From Amazonocrinis nigriterrae CENA67 (GTDB lineage: Bacteria; Cyanobacteriota; Cyanobacteriia; Cyanobacteriales; Nostocaceae), in the NCBI RefSeq assembly GCF_016056305.1, contig NZ_JAECZC010000017.1, positions 1,865-65,864 on the forward strand: 64,000 nt of DNA, in the 5' to 3' direction. Made by a program: the position numbers and the translations under genes. This document shows positions 41,084-57,073 of the stretch, one piece after another. How positions within the stretch are numbered: position 1 is the first letter of the stretch; each line of letters begins with the position of its first letter. The notes beneath the pieces were generated by a model. That model worked only from the letters and a program-made list of their open reading frames with translations. It made no database searches and had not been told where the DNA came from.

Positions 41084-41644
41084 TTAAATGCTGGCTTTGT
41101 CGTGGTTTTCCAATTTGGCAAGATTAGTTAAAAAACTGGCAAGAACTCTATCTATTGTCTGTTTGGAAGTAGGCAACACAACTTCATGGTGGGCAATATA
41201 GTCTATGCCAGCTTCCGGGTGAGTATTGGTTTCAACAAAGGGATTGTTAGTGGCTGAAATGTCAAATTTGTAGAGTTGAAATTGTATTGCTACAGGCTGG
41301 TGATTAGTTACAAACCATCCAAAAGAATTGGTTTTTTCTATGTTAGCCACAGAAGCAAGCATTACTAGCGATCGCTCACTGTTTGTTTTACATGTTCCCC
41401 TTACACCTGATGAGTCTGAATGCCCAGCAGGGGGTTTTTGATCTTTGGGTGGTTGATACCCAGCTAGTGCAGTCTGTCCCATACTTAAGAACATACTTAA
41501 AAAGCAACTTGTTAAAACTTTAGGATTCAAAATTTTCTTAAAGAGACTTTTTTCGTATACTCTTGTGAATTTGCTTTCTTTTTTGTAGGTATAGACTACT
41601 CTAAATATTAAATTGTCTACTTCTAGTCGAGATGATTTAGTCAT
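41084..41644 (-). CDS. DUF928-like secreted protein, probably shortened
   Basis: 186 residues. A hydrophobic signal-like segment (about 42-62, VLTSCFLSMFLSMGQTALAGY) follows an unusual polar N-terminal extension of about 40 residues; a start nearer to the signal is possible. After it, PPKDQKPPAGHSDSSGVRGTCK and SLVMLASVANIEKTNSFGWFV resemble the start of DUF928. The C-terminal half expected of the family (about 220-250 residues) is short. DUF928 genes commonly accompany CHASE2 sensor genes in cyanobacteria, as here. Function unknown. Confidence 0.65.
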   Translation of the reverse strand: MTKSSRLEVDNLIFRVVYTYKKESKFTRVYEKSLFKKILNPKVLTSCFLSMFLSMGQTALAGYQPPKDQKPPAGHSDSSGVRGTCKTNSERSLVMLASVANIEKTNSFGWFVTNHQPVAIQFQLYKFDISATNNPFVETNTHPEAGIDYIAHHEVVLPTSKQTIDRVLASFLTNLAKLENHDKASI

Positions 41645-42223
41645 CGTTTTTTTTCCTTCGGTTTGACGCCAATTAAATATTTTAAAATCTTCAAAATTCT
41701 CGATTGTCCAATCAAATTAGCTTTACAAAAATGCATATATTATTAACTATGCATTTTTTAATCAAGCATATATTTGATTATAGCTTTTTTACAAACTATA
41801 TAGTAATTTTTAGCTTTTTTAGGTTCTTTGTTCAATATATTTATATGGAAAAATAAGTAGATATGCATGGCGATAATCACGATAGACATATTTTTATATT
41901 GCTATAGTTTATAAAATTTAACTTATCAGTAAGTATCAAATACTAGGAATTAATAAGTTTTAGCTAAGTCTATTAATGTCTACTAATTTATCAGTAATTT
42001 AATACTAATTCTACGTAAGGTTATGCTTGATTCTTACACTAGCTAGATCTAATACCAAGTTGTGTTCAGAGATAGTAGCTTATGGAGTAGGGGAGTAGAG
42101 GGGAAGAAATCGTACTACTTCAAACAGAAACTTAGTATAAAAATACAATTATGAAAACTCCACACTACTTGCATGTTTAGAGTTTGCTACCGACTGTCAA
42201 TAAAGTATATTTGTGTAAAAATT
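41645..42223. other. Intergenic, 579 bp, AT-rich
   Basis: Between the CHASE2 kinase gene and the DUF928 gene. A perfect 11-bp AT-rich hairpin (AAAAATGCATA / TATGCATTTTT, 41727-41758) is the only structure noted. It is flanked by A/T runs on both strands and could stop or pause transcription. No gene is seen. Confidence 0.5.
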
Positions 42224-44119
42224 TCATTTGAAATAATTGCCAAAATAAAACTTGGGCATAGGCCAAGATAACTCACAAAGAGTACCCTTAGGAGAAAGTG
42301 GTACTCGCCGAAATTTCCCTTTCAATTGTCGAGCTAAATTTCTAAACTGTTGTGTTCCCCGGCCTTCTTTAGATGAATTACCTCCTAAACCATCATCAAT
42401 AATGCTGAGAGTGTACCAGCCTTCAGATGAATAGCAAGTAACTTCCAGACGTGTGACTCCCATAGCATGTTTACCCACATTGCATAAAGCTTCTTCCAAA
42501 AATCGGCACAGCCCCCGCTTTTGTTCCATATTCAAGACCCGCTCATTTATAGGTTCAAAAGCTCTGATTTTAACTTTGATAGTTTCAAAACAGGGTAATT
42601 CTCTTTCTAAGGTAGAATTATAAACTTGATAGAGAATTTCATGAAGAGGGTCTCGCAAATTTAGTACTAGACTTTTACCTAAATAAAGACTAGTCTCTTG
42701 GTCAATAGGTTCCCTTTGTAAATATTCATAAATTCCCCTTAACTCGTGGTTCAATTTTTCAAGTTCTTTTTCTAGTTCTAGGAGCAAGTCGTTCATTGGT
42801 AACTCTTTGTCTCGAACTAGTTTCAAAACTTTAGCGAGGCTTTGCAGGGGGCCATTATGAATTTTTACAAATGTGCGCTCAATAATAGTTTGTCTTGCTC
42901 TAATTCCAGAACGCAAAGCTTGATCGTATTGATATAAAGCTGTGATTTCCATTCCATTTAAAGCTAAAACAAGGAGTGTCGGTATCAGCGGAACCCACCA
43001 ACCCAAAAGCAGAAGTAAATAACAAAATATCAGTAGGCTACAGCTAGCGATCACAACAACTAATAGACTGGTAAGAGGCGATTTAGTGAGCCTAGCAATG
43101 GCAATTCCAAGCAAACCCCAAGTCAAAATCCATAGATATTCCCATCCATCTTGCCAAGTATTTAACAGTGGTCTAGAATCAAGCGCCGCGCTGATAATTT
43201 GGCTAACAGCATGTGCTTGAATTTCTACTCCATAAACTCGTCCTGGTGCAGATTCGATAGATTCAATGGCTGAAGTAGGGATAAAATCTTTACGGCTAGG
43301 GGAAGTTATGCCAATAATGACTATGCGATCGCGTATCCAGTCTGGATTAAATTTATCGCTTTTGAGATCATACAAAGATAAAGTTCTAAATTGTTCTCGA
43401 CCACTGCGAAAATTCAGTAGTACCTGAACTCCACCTGCATCAGTTCGGATATATCCCCCAGAATTAGTTAAAAACCTGGGTATTTCAGTCTTACCGAATC
43501 TGATAGCAGCGCGATCGCGAATACCATTTTCTATACTAATACCTTGATTACTTAAATATAATGCTGCCAGACTTAGAGATAAAGATAACTTATAACCTTT
43601 GCTTGTGGGTGTACTTAACAAGCTACGCCTTAATTTGCCATCGCTATCTGTAATTTGATCGGCAAAACCAAGCTGTTCAGGTGATAATCCTGGTGGTGGA
43701 GCAATTTCATCAGGTAATACTTTTTCAATACCAATTATATTTTTGAAACTTTGAAAAACTCTAACCAATTCTGGATGACCAGGATTAACTGGAAAATCCC
43801 TATAAATATCAAGACCAATAGCTCTTGGTTTATAACTCTGCAATTTTAACAGCAACTGTGCCAAGTCGTGATCTGATAGAGGAAAATCTGCACGAGTGTT
43901 GATATCGTCTTCATTAATCCCTAAAATTACAATCCGTTTATCTCTAGGTTCATGGGGGCGTAGTCGAAGAAAATTATCAAAAGCCATCCACTCTAAAGAT
44001 TGCATTAAACCAGCTAGACGAGCAATCATCACCAGCACAATCACTGCAATACCTGGTAATGCACCTACACGCCATATAGCAATTTCTTCTTTAATTGTTC
44101 TCCAACGTTCAGGCTTCAT
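42224..44119 (-). CDS. CHASE2-domain sensor histidine kinase
   Basis: 631 residues. A membrane helix (about 18-36) is followed by an extracytoplasmic CHASE2 domain (about 40-320; FLRLRPHEPRDKRIVILGINEDDIN, RAIGLDIYRDFPV), then three membrane helices (about 325-400). Next is a HisKA_3-type dimerisation region (about 410-480) with KIHNGPLQSLAKVLKL as the H box, and a HATPase (about 530-625; FLEEALCNVGKHA, IIDDGLGGNSSKEGRGTQQFRNLA). The H box is of the NarX/LuxR-pathway class, which fits the LuxR-type response regulator just upstream on the same strand (204 bp apart). Signal unknown. Confidence 0.88.
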   Translation of the reverse strand: MKPERWRTIKEEIAIWRVGALPGIAVIVLVMIARLAGLMQSLEWMAFDNFLRLRPHEPRDKRIVILGINEDDINTRADFPLSDHDLAQLLLKLQSYKPRAIGLDIYRDFPVNPGHPELVRVFQSFKNIIGIEKVLPDEIAPPPGLSPEQLGFADQITDSDGKLRRSLLSTPTSKGYKLSLSLSLAALYLSNQGISIENGIRDRAAIRFGKTEIPRFLTNSGGYIRTDAGGVQVLLNFRSGREQFRTLSLYDLKSDKFNPDWIRDRIVIIGITSPSRKDFIPTSAIESIESAPGRVYGVEIQAHAVSQIISAALDSRPLLNTWQDGWEYLWILTWGLLGIAIARLTKSPLTSLLVVVIASCSLLIFCYLLLLLGWWVPLIPTLLVLALNGMEITALYQYDQALRSGIRARQTIIERTFVKIHNGPLQSLAKVLKLVRDKELPMNDLLLELEKELEKLNHELRGIYEYLQREPIDQETSLYLGKSLVLNLRDPLHEILYQVYNSTLERELPCFETIKVKIRAFEPINERVLNMEQKRGLCRFLEEALCNVGKHAMGVTRLEVTCYSSEGWYTLSIIDDGLGGNSSKEGRGTQQFRNLARQLKGKFRRVPLSPKGTLCELSWPMPKFYFGNYFK

Positions 44120-44323
44120 AAACGTCCACCTTCACTTTTTGCTGTTAATTAGCCTTGAACTATCAGCCATTAATCATTAACTGAGAACTTATGCAATTAA
44201 CACACTAATACCAAAGTGATGATTGTGAAGAGTCAATAGTTAGAAATCAAGCTATTTTTAGTCTTTTAACTATTGCTGATACCAGCATAATGACTACAAA
44301 AATTGTATAATTTATCTCAACTA

Positions 44324-45001
44324 TCAATCAATTAATCCTTCTTCTCTAGCCCGGATTTCAGTTTGAATTCGGATATTTTTACCCTCTTCAGGATAAACAC
44401 TTAAAGCATCTTGCAGCTTACTCCAGTAATGACGCACCATTCGTTCAGACATACACATACGTTCAGCAATTGCTTTATCTTGCAATCCTTCCTCAAATGC
44501 TAAAGTCAGCACCCTGAGCCACTCTGGTTTAACTTCTAAGACAGAATGTATTCCTTTAATATCTTTTGTATGAGTTAAGCCCTGTAATGCCCAATCAACT
44601 CTGGTCAACATTTCCTGAGTCGATAGGCTTTTATCAGCGACTGTAAAGCCTCCTTTGTGACTATCAATATCAGGTCTAACCCTCACCAGGGTTCTCACAT
44701 TAGCACTTTGGACAACAATATTTAAGTTGGGATAGTTTTTCATCAAAGTTCTTAAAAGTTGAACCCCTATATCAGGTCGAGCTGTCATTCCAGAGTTATC
44801 TGGAATCGAAAGATCCATCACAACCAGATCTGGCTGTGAGGTAGTAATTTGATTAAGAGCATTCTTAGCATTGATTGCAATGATGAATTCAGCGTCAGGG
44901 TATTGCTTTTGTAGCACATTCGCAGTTCCAGCTAAAACTGATTCGTGGTCATCAATTACTAGAATTTTTAGCAATGCTTTCTCTGTACAAGTTTGTTTCA
45001 T
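44324..45001 (-). CDS. LuxR/NarL-type response regulator
   Basis: 225 residues. The receiver domain (10-135) has ILVIDDHESVLAG, phosphoacceptor in DLVVMDLSIPDNSGM, and a conserved Lys in TVADKSLSTQEML. The C-terminal helix-turn-helix (about 160-215) reads VLTLAFEEGLQDKAIAERMCMSERMVRHYWSKLQDAL, the NarL/LuxR DNA-binding fold. It most likely receives phosphate from the CHASE2 kinase encoded next, and could control the peptide export cassette upstream. Both points are inference from position and class. Confidence 0.87.
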   Translation of the reverse strand: MKQTCTEKALLKILVIDDHESVLAGTANVLQKQYPDAEFIIAINAKNALNQITTSQPDLVVMDLSIPDNSGMTARPDIGVQLLRTLMKNYPNLNIVVQSANVRTLVRVRPDIDSHKGGFTVADKSLSTQEMLTRVDWALQGLTHTKDIKGIHSVLEVKPEWLRVLTLAFEEGLQDKAIAERMCMSERMVRHYWSKLQDALSVYPEEGKNIRIQTEIRAREEGLID

Positions 45002-45362
45002 AACTAACAGCCTACAGATGAAGTAGGTAAAGATTAACTGTTTATTTTGAAATCAATCCATACATATTTTTTGATATACAGCACTTACGTCAGTATAGTA
45101 GATTTTTTTATGAAGCTGTCAAAATTCAAAAGCAGAGCCGGAGTTTTAGCAGTCTCCGGTCAATAGTCTAAAAAACCTTGTTTTTGACCATGAACTGTTG
45201 AATTTTCACAACCTTCACATTTGTTTTATTGTGCCAGTTGGGTAATTACCTATATAATTATATTGTTGATTATATATTTATGACTACATTATTACATGTT
45301 TTTAATCTAAAATCATTAAGGTATACATTTTAGCCAGACAGCAAGCAATACTGCAATAAATC
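45002..45362. other. Intergenic, 361 bp, AT-rich
   Basis: Upstream of the response regulator. A small stem (CCGGAG / CTCCGG, 45139-45158) is the only structure noted. It probably contains the promoter for the regulator-kinase pair and the end of the export operon. Confidence 0.4.
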
Positions 45363-46070
45363 TTACCAATAGAAGTAACAAGTAATACTCAGGTTCTGTT
45401 TACGGCAAAAGCATGTTCCCGAAGTTAAAAATCGAAAGCTTTCGCAAAGATACTTTAATTCTCTTAAGGTAGAATAAAAAATGACTGTAGATTGGTCAGG
45501 ATATGTAATTTGTACCATTAGCTGACCCATATTTTTCTGTTGTTTTAAACTGATAAAAATTGATGTAGGAACTGAAACATGGGACAAAGTTAATATTAGT
45601 AGTTCTTCTAAAGCTCTTAAAACTATCAAACTCTGCTCAGCTGGCTCATACCGCCAGTAGGGTGGTATATCAAAATGAAAACATAGGTGAGAATTTGATG
45701 TTAACCACGGTTCTAATAGGCACTCAAGAGCCAAAGGAAGGCTATCTTGAATATATGCCGGAAATAAGCGATCGCTCAATTGCACGAGAGCGTGATGAAA
45801 ATTATCAGCTTGTTTTAGGTATTCTCGGGTTTTATTAATTGTTAAACTGAGGTTATCTTGCGCTAATAAATCTAAGCTGCGGCGTATTGTAAATGATTCT
45901 TGCAATAAGCCATCATGAATTTTCTTTGCTTCTATAAATAGTTTTAGAGACTGCCTAGAAAACCACCATTGTAATGCTTGTTGAATTCTACAATAGGTTT
46001 TCAAAAACATTACCAATGTCACTACATAGGTAATTACTAGTAGATTTTGCGTGTTGAATGTCATAATCAC
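45363..46070 (-). CDS. Degenerate histidine-kinase-like membrane protein
   Basis: 235 residues. One N-terminal membrane helix (7-25) leads to a HisKA_3-like segment KKIHDGLLQESFTIRRSLDLL (about 49-69), closely resembling KIHNGPLQSLAKVLKL of the CHASE2 kinase. The later region (LRALEELLILTLSHVSVPTSIFISL) has the outline of a HATPase N box, but the DxGxG and GxGL boxes are absent and the C-terminus is short. ATP binding is thus unlikely. The gene begins 12 bp after the HlyD stop, so it is almost certainly co-transcribed with the exporter. It may be a partner or modulator of the CHASE2 kinase, which is inference. Confidence 0.72.
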   Translation of the reverse strand: MIMTFNTQNLLVITYVVTLVMFLKTYCRIQQALQWWFSRQSLKLFIEAKKIHDGLLQESFTIRRSLDLLAQDNLSLTINKTREYLKQADNFHHALVQLSDRLFPAYIQDSLPLALECLLEPWLTSNSHLCFHFDIPPYWRYEPAEQSLIVLRALEELLILTLSHVSVPTSIFISLKQQKNMGQLMVQITYPDQSTVIFYSTLRELKYLCESFRFLTSGTCFCRKQNLSITCYFYW

Positions 46071-46082
46071 ATACTTGTCTCT

Positions 46083-47495
46083 TCATAAATCAGCAATTAA
46101 CCTAGCCTTCCTCAACATAAATTGTAATGCTGTCTCTTCTTTAGAAATAATGTCAGCTTTGGCCTCCATTCCAGATTGGATATGACACTGGCGATCGCCA
46201 TTGCCAAATATGGTTTTTTCAGGTTGAATAGTTGCTTCAAAGTAGCTATTTGCAGAGGTTGCAGAACCTGGTATAGCAACTTCTGGGTTGTTACTTTTAG
46301 ACGCAATTGCATCGGGAGAAACAGCCGTGACTACACCATTGAGAGTGCCATAATCAGGATAAGGACAAGCATCAATTCGCAATTGCACTTTTTGACCAAC
46401 TGCGACATTTTTAATTTCTTGAGTGGGAATAACAGCTTTAATAACTAAAGGAGCATTATTAGGAGCAATTTCAGCAATAGCTTCACTAGCACGCAGCACT
46501 TGACCAGGGTTGCGTAAATTGAGCTTGAGAATGATACCATTAGCACTTGCTCGCAGAATAGTATCTTGTAATTGACTAATTACTTGGAGAAGTTCTTTAT
46601 GAGATTGTCCGAGTTGGTTTTGCATTTCCACTCGCTGCTGAATTAAAGCTTGTTTTTCCTTTTTTAAAATAGCGAGACTGGCTTCACCTTTAGCAGTTTC
46701 TTGACCAATGCGTTCTTGAGCGATCGCAACTATGGCGGTGGTAGGATTAACAGCAGCTTTAGCTGCTTGCACTTTAGCTTTGGCAATATCAACAGCTTTT
46801 GTTTCTGCTGCAAGTATGGCTTTAGTCTGCACAACAACTAGCTTTTTCTGCTCAAATTCGCGCCTACCAATTGCGCCAAGCTTCGCCAACTGTTCATAGC
46901 GATCGCGATCCACTTCAGCAAAACTTAAATCAGCTTGGGCTTTTTGCAAGTCTGCTTCAGCTTTTTCTAAACTTGCTTGCGCTGCTATTAATTCGCTGTT
47001 GGTGGTAATTTGTCGCTCTTGATATTCCCGTTGATTGCGTGCTAAATCTGCTTGAGCAGAAGCTACGCTTCGTTCTGCTACTGTTGCTTCAGCAGTAATT
47101 TGAGTATTTAAAGATCTAATTTGGGCATAAATTTGTAGTATTTGCAACCTAATTTGTTGAATATTGTCTTGTAATTGACTCTTTTTGATTTGTAGTTGTT
47201 CATCGTCTAAACGAGCAATTACATCTCCCTGTTTGACTAGCTGATTTTCTTTCACCAAAATACTTTTAACGGTTCCTTCAATTTTCGGTTGCACTAACCG
47301 AATTTCTCCTGTAGGACGCACAACAGCAGTAGCTTTCACCGTCACATTGTATTTCACCCATGAGGAAAGACTAATCCCAGCACCAAGACTTACAACCAGA
47401 AAAATTCCTGCTAAAGATGTCCAACGACTCACAGGAGGGAGAAACTCTTCATTCTGCTCTGATGGCAGAAGTTTTTTACTATATGTGTAGAGCAT
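46083..47495 (-). CDS. HlyD-family membrane fusion protein for peptide export
   Basis: 470 residues. A membrane helix (about 27-46; LAGIFLVVSLGAGISLSSW), a lipoyl-like half (IEGTVKSILVKENQLVKQGDVIARLDD), a long alpha-helical coiled coil (about 110-310), the second lipoyl half (ANGIILKLNLRNPGQVLRASEAIAEIAP) and a beta-barrel domain. It bridges the inner-membrane ABC exporter and the outer membrane or periplasm. It lies 24 bp after the C39 exporter gene, so both are one transcription unit with the following kinase-like gene. Confidence 0.9.
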   Translation of the reverse strand: MLYTYSKKLLPSEQNEEFLPPVSRWTSLAGIFLVVSLGAGISLSSWVKYNVTVKATAVVRPTGEIRLVQPKIEGTVKSILVKENQLVKQGDVIARLDDEQLQIKKSQLQDNIQQIRLQILQIYAQIRSLNTQITAEATVAERSVASAQADLARNQREYQERQITTNSELIAAQASLEKAEADLQKAQADLSFAEVDRDRYEQLAKLGAIGRREFEQKKLVVVQTKAILAAETKAVDIAKAKVQAAKAAVNPTTAIVAIAQERIGQETAKGEASLAILKKEKQALIQQRVEMQNQLGQSHKELLQVISQLQDTILRASANGIILKLNLRNPGQVLRASEAIAEIAPNNAPLVIKAVIPTQEIKNVAVGQKVQLRIDACPYPDYGTLNGVVTAVSPDAIASKSNNPEVAIPGSATSANSYFEATIQPEKTIFGNGDRQCHIQSGMEAKADIISKEETALQFMLRKARLIADL

Positions 47496-47519
47496 AATTA
47501 TTTAAATAAATTTGTATAA

Positions 47520-49670
47520 TTAAGGATTTAAAAATTCTAAATGCTCACCAGATTGAGAGCGCAGTTCTTCCAAAGAACCTTGAGTTTTTAACTTGCCTTG
47601 ATCTAGTAAAACTATCCAATCAGCACGATTAACTACCTTGGGACGGTGAGTAATTAAAATTGTAGTTTTACCTTGGCGATGTTGAAATAATTTATCTAAA
47701 ACTTGAGCCTCACTTACTGGATCAAGACCACCAGTAGATTCATCTAAAATCAGAATTGGTGGATCTGTAACAATAGCTCTTGCTATTGCTAATCTTTGAC
47801 GTTGCCCACCAGAAATATTTGCACCAAATTCCCCTAAAATAGTTTGATATTTATCAGGTAGTTTACTAATAAATTCATCAGCTTCCGCTACTTGGCAAGC
47901 TCTGACAATCTGTTCAAAAGTGACATGGGGAGCGCCTAAGCGGAAGTTTTCGACAATTGACCGACTCCAAAAATGAGGCTCTTGGGGAACAAGTACTACT
48001 TGTTGTCTGAGACATTCAAGGGATAAGTCTTGGAGGTTATACAGACCAATACGAATATTGCCAGATTGCAGTGAATATAACCCAGCAATCAGTTTTGCTA
48101 AAGTACTTTTACCACAACCAGATTTACCAATTAGTGCAACAACTTTACCACCAGGAATTGTTAAAGAAAAGTCATCTATTAAATCTAGGCGACCAGCATA
48201 ATGGAAATTAATATTTGTGCAAACAATGTCAGCATCTCCTGCAATCTTGGCGTAAGGCTTGATCTCGTCACCCTCATTTTCTGAAGTGGCATCTATCACT
48301 TCTGTAAGACGTTGTGTAGCGGTTTTTGCACGAGTAAATTCTTCAACAAAGCTGATTATAGTAGCAAATAAGCCCAGAAAATTAGCATTCATGGAATTAA
48401 AGGCAAATAGTTGCCCGATACTCAGATTTTCTACTGGGTTAATTACCAAATTGCCACCAAACCAAAGCAAAATCACGCCACCAACCCCTGAAACTAAGCC
48501 AGAGAAAGTATTATTAATAATTCCAATCTGAATTGTCCGGTATGTCACGTTAGCCAGGCGACCAAATCGGCTTTGTAATTCATCCCAAAATTGCAACCCA
48601 GATGTAGTAGTTTTAAGAGTTAGTGCGCCTTTAAAAGTTTCTACTAAAACTCCTTGTGTTTCTGCTTCTTGGACTAAAAGTTCACGAGTTTTTTGCTGTA
48701 AAGTTGGCTGGAATACTACTGTAGATAAGCTCATCACTATACCGATGAATACAGCTACTATAGTCAGTTTCCAACTATAAAAAACCATAAATCCCAAAGA
48801 AACTAATGCAACAAAAAATTGGCTAGGTAGACTAACAACAACCTGAGCAACTAAATGATTAATCTGGTCAATATCTTGTAGACGGCTCACAATTTCACCA
48901 CTACGACGGGCTTCGTAGTATGAGAGAGGTAATCGGAGAATTTGCCGCCCAAATTCTAGCACTAAACCCAATTGCAAACGTTGTGCAAAGTGAGCAATTA
49001 AGTTGGACTGGACAAACGACAGACTACGAGAAATAAAATTCATCACTACCACAGCGATCGCTACAGTAGTAAGTAACTTTGTATCACCTCTAACCAGCAC
49101 ATCATCAGTCAAGATTTGCATTAAAAATGGGGAAGCTAAAGATAGCAATCCCAACATCAAGTTAAGAGGTAAAGCTTGAGCTAAAATAGCCCGGTAAATC
49201 CAGACGCGCTGAAAAAAACGCCAAAATCCACCTACTTTTTCATCTTTCTGAGCAAAAAACTTGATTGGATCAGGTTCTAGTAAAAGCATCAACCAATCTG
49301 ACCAACTTTCAGCTATCTCTTTTTTAGAAAGATAACGGATACCTACAGCCGGATCAGCAACTAAACATTTTTGACCCTTTCTACCGTATAAAACAACCCA
49401 GTGATTGCCTTTCCAGTGAATAATTGCAGGTAGCGGTGCTTCGTTCATCCGGTTTAGGAGTTCTGGTGAGGTTTTCACTGGACGAGCATTAAAACCAAGT
49501 GTTTCTGCACCTCTTTTTAGCCCTAACAAAGTAGTGCCAAACTGCCCAGTACCAACCGCTTCACGAATACGACTCAGAGTAAAAGTACGACCATAATATT
49601 TAGAAACAGCAGCGAGGCAAGCAGCTCCACAGTCTTCTTCACTATGCTGTTTAACAAATTGATATTTCAT
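47520..49670 (-). CDS. Peptidase-containing ABC exporter (C39 domain, bacteriocin type)
   Basis: A 716-residue PCAT-type transporter. The N-terminal C39 peptidase (1-135) has the catalytic Cys14 (SEEDCGAACLA), His90 (WKGNHWVVLYG) and Asp106 (VADPAVGI) and removes leaders after a double glycine. The membrane domain (about 160-450) and ATPase (about 480-716; VALIGKSGCGKSTLAKLI, NISGGQRQRLAIA, ILILDESTGGLDP, ITHRPKVV) follow. It should cut and export the three GG precursors encoded just upstream. Unusually for the family, the Walker B tail reads ESTGGLD instead of EATSALD. Confidence 0.93.
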   Translation of the reverse strand: MKYQFVKQHSEEDCGAACLAAVSKYYGRTFTLSRIREAVGTGQFGTTLLGLKRGAETLGFNARPVKTSPELLNRMNEAPLPAIIHWKGNHWVVLYGRKGQKCLVADPAVGIRYLSKKEIAESWSDWLMLLLEPDPIKFFAQKDEKVGGFWRFFQRVWIYRAILAQALPLNLMLGLLSLASPFLMQILTDDVLVRGDTKLLTTVAIAVVVMNFISRSLSFVQSNLIAHFAQRLQLGLVLEFGRQILRLPLSYYEARRSGEIVSRLQDIDQINHLVAQVVVSLPSQFFVALVSLGFMVFYSWKLTIVAVFIGIVMSLSTVVFQPTLQQKTRELLVQEAETQGVLVETFKGALTLKTTTSGLQFWDELQSRFGRLANVTYRTIQIGIINNTFSGLVSGVGGVILLWFGGNLVINPVENLSIGQLFAFNSMNANFLGLFATIISFVEEFTRAKTATQRLTEVIDATSENEGDEIKPYAKIAGDADIVCTNINFHYAGRLDLIDDFSLTIPGGKVVALIGKSGCGKSTLAKLIAGLYSLQSGNIRIGLYNLQDLSLECLRQQVVLVPQEPHFWSRSIVENFRLGAPHVTFEQIVRACQVAEADEFISKLPDKYQTILGEFGANISGGQRQRLAIARAIVTDPPILILDESTGGLDPVSEAQVLDKLFQHRQGKTTILITHRPKVVNRADWIVLLDQGKLKTQGSLEELRSQSGEHLEFLNP

Positions 49671-49791
49671 AACTCAATTACTCTAGTTTATGACAACCTA
49701 ATCCTAATAATGTTGTCAATTTATTAGGTGATTTTTGCAATTACTAACAACTCTGGATTCAGAGCCTATTAACAGTTAAAAACTTTATTGA

Positions 49792-50121
49792 TTAATCTAA
49801 AAGAGATATAATATTAAATAACATATCGAATAAACTAGACCTCCTACTTGACCTACGCCCGCGTCCTCTACCACCTAGACTCAATCCAAAAGTAATTTGT
49901 GAAAACCTATATCCAGTTTGTTGAATAGAAGAAATACTACCATTACTACCAGATACATTAATTGCACTATTGGCAAAAGTTTCTATATCTGTTTTTTGGA
50001 AGAACAAATTGTAAAGAGATAATCCTGAGTAATGTGAACGTCCACCAGATATAGCTTCTTGTTGTTGTTCGGATACATCAAGAAATAATTCATCAATTTC
50101 CGGTTTGATATGGCTAGACAT
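49792..50121 (-). CDS. Double-glycine leader peptide precursor with Arg-rich core (109 aa)
   Basis: Starts at ATG 50119-50121 (MSSHIKPEIDEL). The open frame to 50211 is only extra. The 27-residue leader ends ELFLDVSEQQQEAISGG, nearly the same as the leaders of the next two genes. The 82-residue core begins RSHYSGLSLYNLFFQKTD, then has a Ser/Gly-rich stretch, and after FGLSLGG carries RGRGRRSSRRSS before a hydrophobic end (LFDMLFNIISLLD). The basic patch and C-terminal amphipathic tail are unlike the other two. Likely an exported peptide, perhaps antimicrobial. Lies 121 bp ahead of the exporter gene. Confidence 0.78.
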   Translation of the reverse strand: MSSHIKPEIDELFLDVSEQQQEAISGGRSHYSGLSLYNLFFQKTDIETFANSAINVSGSNGSISSIQQTGYRFSQITFGLSLGGRGRGRRSSRRSSLFDMLFNIISLLD

Positions 50122-50194
50122 ATTTTTTAGCCTTGAAAAAGTGGAATTACAATGTTCTATCAACAAGGAATATGGCACAATAATTGAAAAAAAG

Positions 50195-50273
50195 CAGTTA
50201 GCTATCAGCAATTTATGGAAACATCATTAGTTTTGTATCCATTAAAATTTAATATAAAGCTGATAGCTAACTG
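50195..50273. repeat. Perfect 15-bp inverted repeat between two precursor genes
   Basis: CAGTTAGCTATCAGC (50195-50209) and its exact complement GCTGATAGCTAACTG (50259-50273) are 49 bp apart, in the 252-bp gap between two precursor genes. An RNA hairpin here could separate precursor mRNA from exporter mRNA, or be an operator. Confidence 0.6.
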
Positions 50274-50373
50274 TCATAAAAACAAAAATCTAGGGGAAGA
50301 TAGGGGAGCGCTAATTACTCCCCTCCTCAACGCGTTGAGAGATGATCATACTCATCGCGATCTATTGCATCAA

Positions 50374-50610
50374 CTAGGAAACTACTGCTTTAAAGGAAGA
50401 AGCTGTTTGAATAGCTTCTTGAATTGTTTTTAGCACACCACCAGCTAATAAACTGCTGCCGCCAAGACCAGAACTACTACCTACTGGGCTAATAGTTTCA
50501 GTTTGTTGGAACGCTTTAGCATATAGGGTGCTAAAGTCTAGAGTCGATAAACCACCTGCTACAACTTCTTGTTGTTCAGCAGATAAATCGGTAAATAGTT
50601 CGTGTAACAT
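50374..50610 (-). CDS. Double-glycine leader bacteriocin-like precursor, 78 aa (CTB-like)
   Basis: A 78-residue precursor. The leader MLHELFTDLSAEQQEVVAGG (20 residues) fits C39 cleavage. The 58-residue core has LDFSTLYAKAFQQTETI, a Gly/Ser-rich centre and a second double glycine (LLAGG, Gly57-Gly58) before a 20-residue amphipathic tail. AAGGAG lies nine bases before the ATG. It is a paralogue of the gene at 50745 (same length, same layout) and resembles the cyanobacterial bacteriocin families with GG leaders that sit beside HlyD/C39 exporters. Activity and target are unknown. Confidence 0.85.
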   Translation of the reverse strand: MLHELFTDLSAEQQEVVAGGLSTLDFSTLYAKAFQQTETISPVGSSSGLGGSSLLAGGVLKTIQEAIQTASSFKAVVS

Positions 50611-50744
50611 GGTTGGAAACTCCTTGATTTGACTTGAATTATCTTGACAACTGAAATACTGAACTTAAAGATCATTTGACTTCAAACGATTGAAGAAGGT
50701 AACCCTTTAATTAGCATCCAGGTTATTCAATCTATTGAAGAGCG

Positions 50745-50981
50745 TTAGCCAACTAATGCTGAAAATATAGAAGATGTTTGGAGAACTTCTTGGATTGTCT
50801 TTTGGATACCACCAGACACTATGGTGCTACCACTAGGGCCTGAAGAAGCTGCAACTGGCCCAATAGTTTCAGAGAGTTGGTAGAGGTGGTTATATAATGT
50901 TGACAAGGTAATACCTTCTACGCCACCAGCTACGATTTCTTGTTGCTCTTCAGTTACATCGATAAACAAGTTGTGAGACAT
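50745..50981 (-). CDS. Double-glycine leader bacteriocin-like precursor, 78 aa (CTB-like), first of the set
   Basis: A 78-residue precursor with the leader MSHNLFIDVTEEQQEIVAGG. The core has ITLSTLYNHLYQLSETIGPV, a PSGST turn, and a second GG (IVSGG, Gly57-Gly58) in exactly the position of its neighbour, followed by a 20-residue tail (IQKTIQEVLQTSSIFSALVG). AGAGGA stands eight bases before the ATG. As the most upstream precursor it probably carries the main promoter in the 51-kb intergenic region. No cysteines, so neither disulfide nor lanthionine maturation is expected. Confidence 0.85.
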   Translation of the reverse strand: MSHNLFIDVTEEQQEIVAGGVEGITLSTLYNHLYQLSETIGPVAASSGPSGSTIVSGGIQKTIQEVLQTSSIFSALVG

Positions 50982-51544
50982 AGTTTTAATCCTCTAATTT
51001 TGAGTTGAATTTGCTTTTAGCTATTTGGTTGATTGCCTTTGTTTGGTGTCTCAACCCCTCGCTTAATTAATACGATAAGTGAAAGTACAGAGGATAGTCA
51101 TTTACACTTTCAGTAAACTTACTTACCAGATTTAGAACACTAGATTTCACAATTACGTCATTACCATTACCGAAAAATACATAGACAGAGTAATTGCTCT
51201 GGAACTAGTTTCTAACTCAGGACTTATAGTGGGACTTAGACAAAAAGTAGCCTGCAAAAGACATCAAACCTATATACAGAAAGGCTTTGACATCGTTTTA
51301 CCTAGTTTATTGATATATCATGGTTTGAAGCATTTTTGAGCAAGGGGTGTATTTTCCTTGCCCTGTATAGGTTTAAGCCTTGTTTCTGCCTCAAAAATGT
51401 TTAAGTCCCGTTAAAAGCTTGATTTTTCGTTCTTTACCGAGGATGTTAAAGCCCCTCTCCGTATCGGAGAGGGGTTGGGGAAAGGTTCATCGAACTCACG
51501 CTAATACAATCCACACTCAAAAAATATGACAATGCGCGTAAGTC
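50982..51544. other. Intergenic, 563 bp, precursor promoter region and one repeat
   Basis: Between the first precursor gene and the stop of the giant kinase gene, both on the minus strand. About 51000-51400 is AT-rich and should carry the promoter of the precursors. The dispersed repeat copy occupies 51415-51502. Confidence 0.5.
51415..51502. repeat. Dispersed repeat copy (right half)
   Basis: AAGCTTGATTTTTCGTTC through the CCCCTCTCCG / CGGAGAGGGG hairpin to ATCGAACTCACGCT. Nearly identical to 15222-15309 and 57883-57968. Confidence 0.8.
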
Positions 51545-54500
51545 CTACTGATGCTGCTTGATGGGAATTTCAATGGTGAATTGAGTTCCTTGTCCTAGTG
51601 CAGATTTGCACTTCAGTTGACCCCGGTGCTTTTCAACAATAGTTTGGTAGCAAATCGATAATCCTAGACCAGTGCCAGAACCAACTGGTTTAGTTGTAAA
51701 GAAAGGATCAAATATTCGACGGCGTACTTCTTCTGTCATACCAGGGCCATTGTCTGTGATTTGAATGACCACGCGGTCAAAATCTAGCTGTTCAGTACGA
51801 ATATGAATGGTTGGTAAATCAGCGATTGCTTGTACAACTTTACCATTTTTTTGGTCTAACTTGCATGAAACATGGCTATTTTCATACTCTTGATCGATGG
51901 CATCAATGGCATTTGTCAAAATATTGATAAAAACTTGATTCAGTTGCCCAGGATAGCACTCAAGCTTTGGTAGTTGAATGTAGTCTTTATAGACTTCAAT
52001 TCTCGGTCTTCCTGCCTTTTCTTTGAAGCGATGCTGCAAAATTAGCAACGTACTGTCAATGCCTTCATGAATATCTACCTGTTTCATCTCTGCTTCATCC
52101 AGGCGGGAGAAGTTACGCAGCGACAGCACAATCTGGCGGATACGATTTGCTCCCATTTTCATGGATTCTAAAGTTTTTGGCAAATCTTCTTTCAAGAATT
52201 CTAAATCAATGGCTTCTTGCCTAGCTAGGATTCCCGCTGCGGGATGGGGATAGTTTTGTTCGTAATCCTCTACTAGCTGTAGCAAATCTTGAAGGTAATT
52301 AGTTGTGTGAACAAGGTTACCATTAATAAAGTTGACTGGGTTGTTAATTTCGTGAGCTACACCAGCTACTAGTTGTCCTAAACTGGACATTTTTTCTGTT
52401 TGGATTAATTGAGTTTGGGTTTGCTGTAATTGTTGCAAAGCTTGTTGTAAATGCTGATTTTTATCATAAAGTTCTAATGTTCTTTCCTGGACTTTGTTTT
52501 CTAAATTTCTGCTGTAATCTTCTAAACTTGCTTTTGCTTCTTGGAGTTTTTTATTAGCTGCTTCCAGTTTGGCATATAGTAAAGCATTTTTCAGAGAGAT
52601 CGCCATTTGAGAAGAAAGCAGTCCTAAAACTTCGAGCCTTTGGGAAGTAAAGGCATCGGTAGTGAGATTGTTTTCTAAGTAAAGAATGCCAATTAGTTGT
52701 CCTTGGTTAATTAAGGGAATGCACAAAACCGACTTTGGTTTGGTTTTCGCAATATAGGGGTCTTTAATAAATATTCCTTCTTGAGCAGCATAATTTAAAA
52801 CAATATTTTCCTTAGTTCTTGCCACGTAATTAATTAAAGAGAGAGGCAGGTAATATGCTGTATTTTCTAAAGGAATAGATGAACATAAAGTAAATTCATC
52901 TTGTTCAACGGAACCCTGAGCTTCAATTAATAACTTACCTTGCTTTTCTAAAAGTAAGTAACTCGTTTGAGCGCCAGCATTTTCCATGACAATTCTGAGT
53001 AACTTTTCTAGCAAGCGACTAAGGACGATTTCACTTGTTAGAGCTTGCGATGCTTTCATAATGGTGGTAAAATCCAATGCACTGGAAGCAATCCCACTAG
53101 TCAAGGTTGTCGTCTGAGTTAATTCTCTCTCTGGAGTTTCTCGTTTATGAATTTGGGAGAAAACCATTGGATAGTTTGTTTCTAAATCTTTGACTTTTGC
53201 TGTTGCTCCCCAACGAATATAGGTATAGTAAGCCTCAATTAAATAAGTTTGAGCAACTTTTTCTCGACCAAGAGAAAAGTAAAACTCTGCTGCTAATTCG
53301 TTAGCAATAGCTTCATCTTGAAGGTAGCCTTGCTCCTTGGCTTTGGCGATCGCGCGATCATAAAGCTCCATGGCTGCAACGATGTCTCCTAAGACTCGCG
53401 CTTTTTCTGCTGCTACAAGTTCATACTTATGCTCAAAGTTACAAGGAGCGCGTAGGGCCCATTGCTGCATCTTTTGCTGATTTTCTTCAACCAAAGCTAA
53501 GTATTGTTGTTTTTCGCTCGTCTGTGCTTGAGCATATAAACCGAGAACAGCCAAGGAATAAAAGAAGGTATAATTACCAAAAACCATCACCCACCCGACA
53601 ACAGGCGTAATGTATTCTGCTGCTAATTTCGCGTTGGCAACTGCTTGGGCACAGTCTTTAAAGAGATACATTAAAATTGCTTTGGCATTGTAGGTGAGAA
53701 ACAGCAAAATCGGATTATTTGCTGCTAAAAAAGCAGGCAGCTTTTTTGATTCATCAAAACTTTCACCAATTAGCTGAGAATTATTTTCAGCTTTTCCTAA
53801 TAGATTGAAGACAACTTGTCGCGCAATACTCACATTGTCAATCGAATATTCTTGCTTCATTTTTAGCAAGAGTTCTAAATATTGTGTTTGCTGCTGCTCA
53901 ACTTTTTCTAGCTGCTCTCCTGACCAAAATAAATGGCAGCAGTAGTTAACTATACAATATCCTGAAAACTCGATATCACCTGTTTCTAGTCCGCTGTGAA
54001 CTCCTTCTATCAATGGTTTGAGAGATGTTTTCACATGCTCTTTCCAAGGACGAATAAAGAGATTGAATAGGTTATATACCTTACATTTGAGTTCTCTAGC
54101 ATTAAATTTATCCAACAGCTTTAATGCCAATTGACCAGACAAGTATCCTGCATCTGTGTTCCCCATTATTGCAGATAAAAGCATACCGTATAATGCACAT
54201 GCAAAAGCTGCTAGACCAGAATAGCCATTTTCGATACACAAATTGATTTGCGTCAATATAATTAGGGGAAACATATCAGGTTTAGCAAAGGTAGAGGCAG
54301 CCGTAACACTGATTAAAAGACGCAAAGTTGCTAATTTGTAAGGGTCGGTCATCACTGGAATATCTTCTAAGTCTGCCAGAGTTGGCAGATTAGCTACTAA
54401 TTGCATGTCACTGGGAGTAGTTTCCCAAGAAACACCAAGCATTGACAGTGCAGAAAGTCCCGTGTCCATCGCTGCACTCATCTGGCTTTGAGCAAAATAA

Positions 54501-57073
54501 AACTGGATTTGCAACTCATACACTTTCACTTTGTCGAGGAGGTTGGTTGCATGTTGCAGTGTGACTTCAGATAAGATAGCTGACCCTTGAAAATTGGTAT
54601 TTAAGTACTCTGCTTCTGCTGCTTCTACGTGGAGGTTGAGTGTTAGGTCATAGTGAGTTTGCCAACTCTCAGGTGTTAGCAGTCCCAATCCGACCCTTAA
54701 GTATCTCACTGCTGGTTCGTAGGCTGTTGCAGCCTTAGCTTTGCGACCTGCAATCAGATTAAGGTGAGCTAGCTCATCTTTTTGTGTGCGATCGCTAATC
54801 AGTTCCACCCCAATATTCAGCTGGTTTACAATGTCAAAGATATTGTCTTCAATTTTTGCTGTAGGAGTATTTTTTAGCAGCTGTTGACCAACTTTGAGGT
54901 GAGTTTCTTTTTTCTGCTCTTCAGGAATTAGGGAATAAGCAGCTTGCTGCACTCGGTCATGTAAAAATTTATAGGAAATGATTGGGGCTTCACGGTCTGT
55001 ATTTAGTTGTTCAAAGCTATCAATCGTTAGTGAATCATCAACAGTTGCTAAAGGAATTTTATAGGCGTTGCTCAGGGGTAAAATTAAACCTGATTGCAGA
55101 GCTATCCAAAGTTCTGTAGCGGTTTTTGTTTGAGATTTCTCGCGGACAATTGCCAGAATATCTAAATTAAAAGAGTTGCCAATACAAGCAGCTAATTTCA
55201 GTACTTGCTGCGTTTCATATGGCAGTTTTTGAATATTCCTTGCAACGAGTTCGACAACATTATAATCGGTAATGCCGATGGTTTGAATTTTGCCAATGTC
55301 CCACTGCCAACTGTCAGTTTTAAAGTCAAAAGTTAAAAGCTTTTCTTCATGTAGGGTTTGGAGTAACTGAGTCAGGAAGAAAGGATTGCCTTGGGTTTTA
55401 TGAAATAGTAGTTCGGCAAGAGGTTGTGATTCATCGCTTTGTTTGAGGGTATCGGCTACTATTTGGCAAACGTGGTCAAATTCTAAAGCTTGTAGAGCGA
55501 TCGCGTTTACAGTTGCACCCGTTTTTTTTATTTCCTCCAAGGTCACTATTAACGGATGGGTAGCGCTGACTTCGTTATCTCGATAAGCTCCGATTAGTAA
55601 TAGATGTTTGCTATCAGGGTCTGTCATCATCAGCTGAATTAATTTGAGAGACGCTGAATCTGACCACTGTAAGTCATCTAGAAATAAAACTAGTGGATGT
55701 TGAGGTTGAGCAAAGACTTGAATAAATTTTTGAAAGACTCGATTAAAACGGTTTTGCGATTCGGTTGGCCCTAATTGAGGCAGGTCTGGTTGTTGACCAA
55801 TAATTAGTTCAACTTCGGGGATAACTTCAACAATGGCCTGACCGTTAGCACCTAAGGCTTCTAAAAGTTTTTGTTTCCAAACAGCTATACTTTCTTGACT
55901 TTCTGTGAGTAGCTGCCGAATTAAATCTTGAAAGGCGTTGACAACACAACTATAAGGAATATTTCGTTTAAACTGATCGAACTTACCAGCAATAAAGTAA
56001 CCGCGTGCTTTCACAATTGGTTTATGAACTTCATTAACCAAAGCTGACTTACCAATTCCTGAATAACCCGCAACCAACATCATTTCTGTTGAGCCAGAAT
56101 CTGCTGGTTTTTCTGATACAGTTGCAACACGAACGAAAGCCTCAATGAGTGTAGCAACTTCGGCTTCGCGACCGTAAAGTTTTTGAGGAATTTGTAGTTG
56201 ACCAGAACGGTCTTGCTGGCCCAAAATAAAGTTTTCTATGTTGCCTGTGGTTTCAAGCTGGATGAGACAAGTTTTTAAATCAGCTTCTAAACCAACGGCG
56301 CTTTGATATCTATCTTCTGCTGTCTTTGCCAACAATTTCAGGATGATGTTAGAAATTGCTTGAGGAATTTTAGGATTTCGTTCGCTTGGAGGTAAGGGTT
56401 GTTTGGCAATGTGACAGTGAACTAACTCCATTGGATCAGTTGTTACAAAAGGTAGCTTACCTGTGAGGATTTCATAAAAAGTTACTCCTAAAGAGTAGAA
56501 GTCGGTGCGATAATCAATGGAACGATTCATGCGCCCGGTTTGTTCCGGCGACATATAAGCAAGTGTACCTTGAATAAATTTTGGATTGCTAAAGCTGGGA
56601 TTCTCTTTTGATAGGCGCGAAGCAATGCTGAAGTCAGTAATTTTGACTTGCAAAGTTTCTGGATGGATAATCAGATTTTGGCTTTTAATATCTTTATGGA
56701 TAATGTGATTTTCGTGCAGCAAAAACAGTGTATTTGCTAGCTGAATAGCAATTTGGAGAAAGCAAACAATATCAACAGAATTGTGATCAATAAATTGCTT
56801 GATAGATTGACCGCCAAAATCTTCTAAGACTAGAACAAGACTGTTACGATAGTTCTCTAGTCCGTATGGTTGAACGATTCCAGCTATTTTGAGTTGTTTG
56901 GAAATCTCGTATTCGTGCCGGAGTTGGGTGATTTCTTCTAAGGTGGGGCACTCTGCGCGGAGAGTTTTGAGAATAACTGCTTTGCCGTCTTTTTCCCTGA
57001 AGGCTCGATAAATAACGGTTCTTAAATCTTCATAAACTGTTTCTATAACTTTGTATTCTAAAAGAGTAGTCAT
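51545..57073 (-). CDS. Hybrid Ser/Thr kinase - ATPase - GAF - histidine kinase (HstK type)
   Basis: A 1842-residue soluble signalling protein. Residues about 10-270 are a Ser/Thr kinase ([13 protein letters not shown], then TDFSIA, with DFS in place of DFG, and [13 protein letters not shown]). Residues about 295-600 are an AAA/AfsR-like ATPase (P-loop [25 protein letters not shown]). Residues about 600-1310 are a TPR-like helical region. Residues about 1345-1500 are a GAF domain ([21 protein letters not shown]). Residues about 1550-1842 are the HisKA ([18 protein letters not shown]) and HATPase ([27 protein letters not shown]). Such HstK proteins are typical of filamentous cyanobacteria. No regulator adjoins it directly; the peptide cassette lies downstream on the same strand. 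A fragment of a related kinase remains at 2951-3115. Confidence 0.92.

Follow-up and report, generated by a model that had tools for sequence, protein, structure and literature searches.

Does a cyanobacterial peptide-export cassette carry a dedicated switch of its own? The question is raised by a locus of Amazonocrinis nigriterrae CENA67 that lies on contig NZ_JAECZC010000017.1, within a stretch of 64,000 nucleotides that we analyzed as a whole and refer to as the window. The minus strand of window positions 41084–50981 encodes, in order, three precursors with double-glycine (GG) leaders, a C39 ABC exporter, an HlyD-type adaptor, a pseudo-histidine kinase (PK), a response regulator (RR), a sensor histidine kinase (HK), and a gene at the position of DUF928 genes in relatives. 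The block is probably a self-contained secreted-peptide module with a dedicated two-component circuit, in which HK would act through RR on the precursors, the exporter, and PK. The best sequence evidence for self-regulation is a composite promoter element located before the precursors and, in some loci, before PK, which suggests that the two are wired together. The features of the block are as follows.

51161–51183, minus strand: A box of the promoter element, core TGTATTTTTCGGTAAT at 51166–51181; 9-mer enrichment and position matrix, score 26.
51106–51141, minus strand: B box of the promoter element, TTCTAAATCTGGTAAGTAAGTTTACTGAAA, 42 bp from the A box; position matrix, score 47.
50745–50981, minus strand: GG precursor 1 (pre1), 78 amino acids, leader MSHNLFIDVTEEQQEIVAGG; NF038167 at 46.0 bits.
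50374–50610, minus strand: GG precursor 2 (pre2), 78 amino acids, leader MLHELFTDLSAEQQEVVAGG; NF038167 at 45.3 bits.
49792–50124, minus strand: GG precursor 3 (pre3), 110 amino acids from the ATG at 50124; NF038167 at 29.6 bits, slightly below the cut-off.
47520–49670, minus strand: C39 peptidase-containing ABC exporter, 716 amino acids; PF03412 (Peptidase_C39), PF00664 (ABC_membrane), and PF00005 (ABC_tran).
46083–47495, minus strand: HlyD-type periplasmic adaptor, 470 amino acids; PF13437 (HlyD_3) and TIGR01843 at 174.9 bits.
45363–46070, minus strand: PK, predicted membrane-anchored pseudo-histidine kinase, 235 amino acids, start 12 bp past hlyD; homologue alignment and structure model.
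44324–45001, minus strand: RR, NarL/FixJ-type response regulator, 225 amino acids; PF00072, alignment, and structure model with Foldseek.
42224–44119, minus strand: HK, CHASE2 sensor histidine kinase, 631 amino acids; PF05226 (CHASE2) at 3e-65 and alignment.
41084–41644, minus strand: decayed DUF928-family protein, 186 amino acids, with a ∼73-residue core deletion compared with relatives.

A preliminary description of the sequence had listed these genes on one strand, and we recovered all of them on the minus strand at approximately the same coordinates. To judge from its conservation, the clustering of these genes is not due to chance. PK was found in 53 of 149 related genomes. Comparison of the neighborhoods of the PK-positive relatives, together with 80 named genome contigs located with an RR alignment, revealed a near-universal order of one to several precursors, C39, HlyD, PK, RR, HK, and often DUF928. 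The block occurs in Nostoc, Anabaena, Dolichospermum, Aphanizomenon, Sphaerospermopsis, Fischerella, Chlorogloeopsis, Scytonema, Brasilonema, Tolypothrix, Calothrix, and Komarekiella. In a quick tree of RR plus HK, 61 exporter-linked rows fall within one 66-row clade (SH-like approximate likelihood ratio test, 100), the remaining 5 rows being contig ends or exporter losses. Of 61 loci, only the window itself has the genes that flank the block there (a large hybrid kinase, an ABC-2 pair, and an AcsF-like gene). The link between exporter and signaling genes, a central claim of the preliminary description, is therefore borne out by the gene order kept across Nostocales genera, the single RR plus HK clade, and the unconserved flanks; when relatives were checked for a regulator pair away from the exporter, linkage proved to be the rule in the Nostocaceae. 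The claimed tight link of PK to hlyD is true in the window (12 bp) but local, the gap being 12–18 bp in the window and its closest relatives and >700 bp in some relatives; the order of the genes is the conserved feature.

The protein of 1842 amino acids encoded upstream of the block, at window positions 51545–57073, resembles a hybrid of Ser/Thr kinase, AAA, GAF, and histidine kinase parts; in relatives, it is not conserved beside the block.

The composite element consists of an A box (TGTATTTTTCGGAAATA) followed by a B box (TTCTAAATNTGGTAATTAAGTTTGCAGAAA), that is, TGTATTTTTCGGAAAT and then GGTAATTAAGTTTGCAGAAA at fixed spacing, and typically lies 150–205 bp upstream of a precursor. The window copy (51106–51183) contains TTTTTCGG and GGTAA as well as, between the two boxes, a weaker A-like repeat (CGTAATTGTGAAATCTA). 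The 9-mer GAAAAATAC, on either strand, occurs upstream of the precursors in 38 of 58 loci versus 1.2 expected from shuffles, whereas the identical test upstream of the exporter, HlyD, PK, RR, HK, and DUF928 peaks at only 5–11 loci. Because the signal is confined to the precursor upstream regions, it does not reflect plain conservation by descent. A and B are separated by 41–43 bp in 60 pairs and by 20 bp in another 20; the two classes differ by two helical turns, which would keep the boxes on the same DNA face. In linked loci the orientation of the element is always the same, and some genomes possess three copies, each before a separate precursor. Among linked loci with enough upstream sequence, 69 of 82 have an A+B pair, compared with none of 16 same-family exporters away from the cassette and none of 36 other loci; the first figure is partly circular, since part of the linked loci served to train the matrices, whereas the shuffle control, the fixed spacing, and the strand bias of the element are not. 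In the exporter tree, unlinked copies are nested among linked ones (L109 and L113–L117; L, G, and C label our loci, genomes, and contigs), and of these L113–L117 have no element and L109 keeps the B box only. The gene alr5147 is a predicted LexA target (PMC3091678); the A–B element was found without a LexA model.

An exact A match is present in 49 of the 149 relatives: 35 of the 53 genomes with PK and 14 of the 96 without it. Only 4 of the PK-negative genomes have a real element, and all of them bear RR (G025, G029, G074, and G147, with B degenerate in G147); the A matches of the other 10 are without B, and several lie inside coding regions. In the window's genome, where the element was counted through pattern search only, the A pattern with ≤1 mismatch has 4 matches, no more than the reversed control, and the 2 exact matches each precede a CTB or CTB-like precursor, namely the window site and a decayed site on contig C74. 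At the latter (L271, ∼32724), the A box is followed by a CTB-like leader, MSYNLFFDITED, and then a stop, which has the appearance of a fossil precursor with its promoter. A separate observation concerns L243 of genome G147, where an A-like element (∼7204, minus strand) lies behind an RR-CHASE2 pair that is accompanied by neither PK nor an exporter. It precedes a gene for a pentapeptide-repeat protein with a signal-like N terminus, which may be another target. The Fischerella/Chlorogloeopsis group has a few loci in which A boxes without B precede DUF928; these are only suggestive of the element there.

PK itself also has sites. A boxes with a score of at least 8 precede PK in 12 of 53 loci on the plus strand versus 1 on the minus strand, and 6 of these 12 loci have a B-like sequence at one of the two spacing classes; the same two classes are found for A with B before 4 exporters among the scanned loci. 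Either the position 12–18 bp after hlyD or an element copy of its own would put PK under the control of the precursors.

PK, which has a single copy in the window's genome, had been described as a degenerate kinase-like protein, and this holds. Judged from alignment and structure model, it is a DesK-like pseudokinase, catalytically dead and encoded beside the live HK. The N-box Asn and the G1 and G2 boxes are missing from all aligned PK sequences, and the phosphoacceptor position, residue 52 of PK, is occupied by Arg in 94 of 97 homologues, with the sister genome likewise showing Arg. The His found in the window and two close relatives is atypical for the family. Residues W35, E47, Q57, R63, R64, P112, W139, E156, G218, and W235 are invariant and non-catalytic. 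By sequence, PK has no meaningful match in the PDB, and hhalign against HK profiles returned a weak match in the expected register (probability 0.4, E 0.16), so that a structure model was needed. This model (29 sequences, pLDDT 84) shows a long N-terminal helix, comprising the membrane part and the first DHp helix, followed by the second DHp helix and a CA-like sandwich; the histidine kinase fold of DHp hairpin and CA sandwich is thus present in the model. In the PDB, Foldseek ranked histidine kinases and kinase-like modules highest (best E 2.7e-7), with DesK structures among the nearest over the full length (VIA Z 13–14).

RR and HK bear out the LuxR-type regulator and the CHASE2 kinase named in the preliminary description. 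In the receiver domain of RR, D63 and K124 are invariant in the alignment. The Pfam LuxR helix-turn-helix model finds no match on RR; despite this, RR is, on the basis of its structure model (pLDDT 90.5), a NarL/FixJ-type regulator, with a fold that matches LiaR, RcsB, EvgA, DesR, and NarL. The catalytic residues of HK (H421, N547, D575, and the G box with G586 and G588) are kept in 21 of 21 aligned sequences. The sensor part is less constant, since the linked HK of the Dolichospermum/Sphaerospermopsis/Trichormus group (L080, L081, L088–L091, L095, L104, L105, and L195–L203) lacks CHASE2 and retains the membrane helices and the kinase part, which argues against sensing via CHASE2 in this group. 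The PK membrane helix is lost in the same group and in neighboring lineages; the tally against the CHASE2 domain of HK (32 with both, 18 with neither, and 12 mixed) agrees with a joint loss of the two, but the tree has only 3 and 5 changes, too few to make this more than a possibility. The DUF928 assignment stands for the relatives, in which the same-place orthologue matches PF06051 at 1.7e-37, but not for the window protein, which has no Pfam match to DUF928 or to any other family.

We propose the following circuit. HK would sense a condition of the cell envelope through CHASE2 and phosphorylate the NarL-type RR, which would bind both boxes of the element, spaced 20 or 42 bp from each other, and switch on the precursor–exporter transcript. 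The C39 domain would cleave the leader at the GG motif, and the peptides would exit via the ABC–HlyD channel. PK would be made under precursor control, either from its position directly behind hlyD (12 bp in the window) or from its own element copy. The dead PK may pair with HK through its DHp-like hairpin and tune the kinase or phosphatase activity of HK, providing feedback of either sign. We infer this pairing from the pseudo-histidine kinases DivL and an evolved ChrS variant (PMC9491836), which resemble the role proposed for PK in that a dead kinase modulates the regulator phosphorylation of a live one. However, these are full-size sensors or laboratory variants, whereas PK forms a compact natural family that is linked to an exporter and apparently controlled by the circuit.

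Besides the partial circularity of the matrix counts, several observations weigh against this circuit. The element is absent upstream of RR (0 of 60) and of HK (0 of 50), and direct autoregulation of either gene via the element was rejected, as neither promoter has a site. The self-regulation suggested in the preliminary description consequently stands in part: a shared element joins the precursors, PK, and sometimes the exporter, but leaves out the promoters of RR and HK. The PK-associated sites are weaker than the precursor sites. PK is missing from a few linked loci (L108, L110, and L202) and is therefore not essential. In L128, L129, and L239, from Nostoc sp. CHAB 5836 and its close relatives, the HK gene lies in the opposite orientation to RR, and in L129 and L239 it is also frameshifted or fragmented; exporter and PK persist in all three loci, as does the element wherever sequence covers that region.

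The missing sites at RR and HK would be expected if the element were bound by another, global regulator, such as one for nutrients or stress, with HK and RR controlling something else and their co-location being historical. Partial elements at two unlinked exporters (the B box of L109 and an A box at L111) point the same way, as does a CTB operon of Nodularia spumigena that is up under phosphate starvation (PMC9846622), an operon not shown to be of the window type. However, the full element is missing from unlinked exporters and from RR-less PK-negative genomes, it is still present in the Cylindrospermum loci that have lost exporter and PK and kept RR (L152/L242 and L289), and it also precedes PK of the same cassette. 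We consider a global regulator unlikely. Peptide quorum sensing, a possibility raised in the preliminary description, would have the CHASE2 kinase recognize the secreted peptide as its ligand, much as peptide-pheromone systems work; it would be in keeping with the physical linkage, with the shared control of precursors and PK, and with an extracytoplasmic sensor domain in most genomes. Yet HK shows no sign of sensing the peptide; the Dolichospermum group, with CHASE2 deleted, keeps precursors, exporter, and element; the precursor cores vary widely in sequence and number across loci, whereas HK is well conserved; and HK and RR are not under the element. We give this explanation little credence.

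PK could also be a functionless kinase relic retained by its operon position alone, as every catalytic motif is lost and some lineages lack the membrane helix, others the whole gene. Its open frame in nearly all genera, the invariant non-catalytic residues, the confident structure model, and the element copies of its own make a relic very improbable. The identity of the peptides is a different matter. They may be matrix or developmental microproteins instead of bacteriocins, with the same circuit serving biofilm or filament behavior, which is compatible with the circuit proposed above. In Synechococcus elongatus, the EbfG1–4 microproteins and the C39 exporter PteB enable biofilm (PMC4997328), and some genomes have many near-identical precursors per locus (∼9 in L069). 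The competition-related role considered in the preliminary description likewise found no support, given that the GG proteins of S. elongatus serve biofilm. Against this stands the NCBIfam annotation of the precursors as bacteriocins, a label that is family annotation only. We regard microproteins as a serious, if somewhat doubtful, possibility.

Where could the proposed circuit have come from? Exporter-less sets of PK, RR, HK, and DUF928 occur near two-partner secretion (TPS)-domain exoproteins (L087, L097, L101, L103, L106, L236, and L237); 5 of these 7 sets are also accompanied by a CHAT-TPR protein and 1 by a ShlB transporter. A convergent CHAT gene follows DUF928 in 16 of 86 exporter-linked loci, including early branches, at the same place as in the TPS loci. 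The simplest reading suggested by these arrangements is that the signaling unit of a TPS locus was joined once to a peptide exporter; the direction of joining is inferred, as the tree was rooted at the midpoint only. Tentatively, and with a chance that we place just short of even, the signaling unit of two-partner secretion (PK, NarL-type RR, CHASE2 kinase, DUF928, and convergent CHAT) would have joined a C39 exporter once, in an ancestor of the heterocystous cyanobacteria, and gained a dedicated operator that also drives PK, creating an autoregulated secretion switch with a dead feedback kinase. No description of a recurrent PK-RR-CHASE2-DUF928 unit beside TPS or CHAT-TPR genes was found in the literature searched.

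The export genes are of a familiar kind. Pre1 and pre2 pass the curated cut-off of NCBIfam NF038167 (“CTB family bacteriocin,” 32 bits), and pre3 does not. The leader of pre3 ends in EQQQEAISGG, its C-terminal region is Arg-rich, and its orthologues lie upstream of C39 in many loci. The exporter keeps its catalytic residues; assignment as an NHLM/NHLP export ABC transporter (TIGR03796) was not supported, with 447 bits versus a cut-off of 853. Neither LanM nor an S8 peptidase is encoded among the genes between the precursors and HK. Two more short-type C39 exporters are encoded on contigs C17 and C27 of the window's genome (L050, 67% identical; L054, 65% identical); both come with GG precursors, but neither has the element or linked regulators.

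The regulated bacteriocin loci of Gram-positive bacteria likewise combine a linked two-component system with GG precursors and a C39 exporter, but they employ polytopic peptide-receptor kinases and other regulator types, whereas the cassette has a CHASE2 kinase alongside a pseudokinase and an RR of the NarL type. For alr5149–alr5151, which we take to be the Nostoc PCC 7120 counterparts of the block's signaling genes, no paper was found in a search that left most subscription journals outside, and the same search found none joining CHASE2, bacteriocin, and cyanobacteria. The cassette resembles the Group III bacteriocin clusters of cyanobacteria (Wang, Fewer and Sivonen 2011, PMC3140520; example hlyD alr5148 of Nostoc PCC 7120) in its short-type C39 ABC exporter without N-terminal CAP_ED, its HlyD, its several GG precursors, and its occurrence in filamentous cyanobacteria. 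However, the text of that paper is without kinase, histidine, sensor, or two-component genes, and neither a linked PK-RR-HK set nor the element is described there. EbfG1–4/PteB (PMC4997328) likewise combines a C39 exporter with GG microproteins in a cyanobacterium; its regulation is given there as unknown, and no linked HK-RR-PK set is described. With DesK–DesR and LiaR/VraR, the block shares the DesK-type DHp–CA fold of PK and the LiaR/DesR/NarL fold of RR, but here PK as a family has lost the ATP site and the His, a separate CHASE2 protein serves as the live kinase, and the predicted target is peptide export. The exporter and precursors are already known; what appears to be new is the dedicated circuit, together with the PK family and the element.

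Clusters for GG peptides are common in cyanobacteria, and little is known of what switches them on. In a single conserved block, this locus brings together candidates for the sensor, the regulator, the binding site, and the modulator; the host range of the block includes bloom-forming Dolichospermum. PK may furthermore provide a compact natural family for studies of dead histidine kinases that tune live ones.

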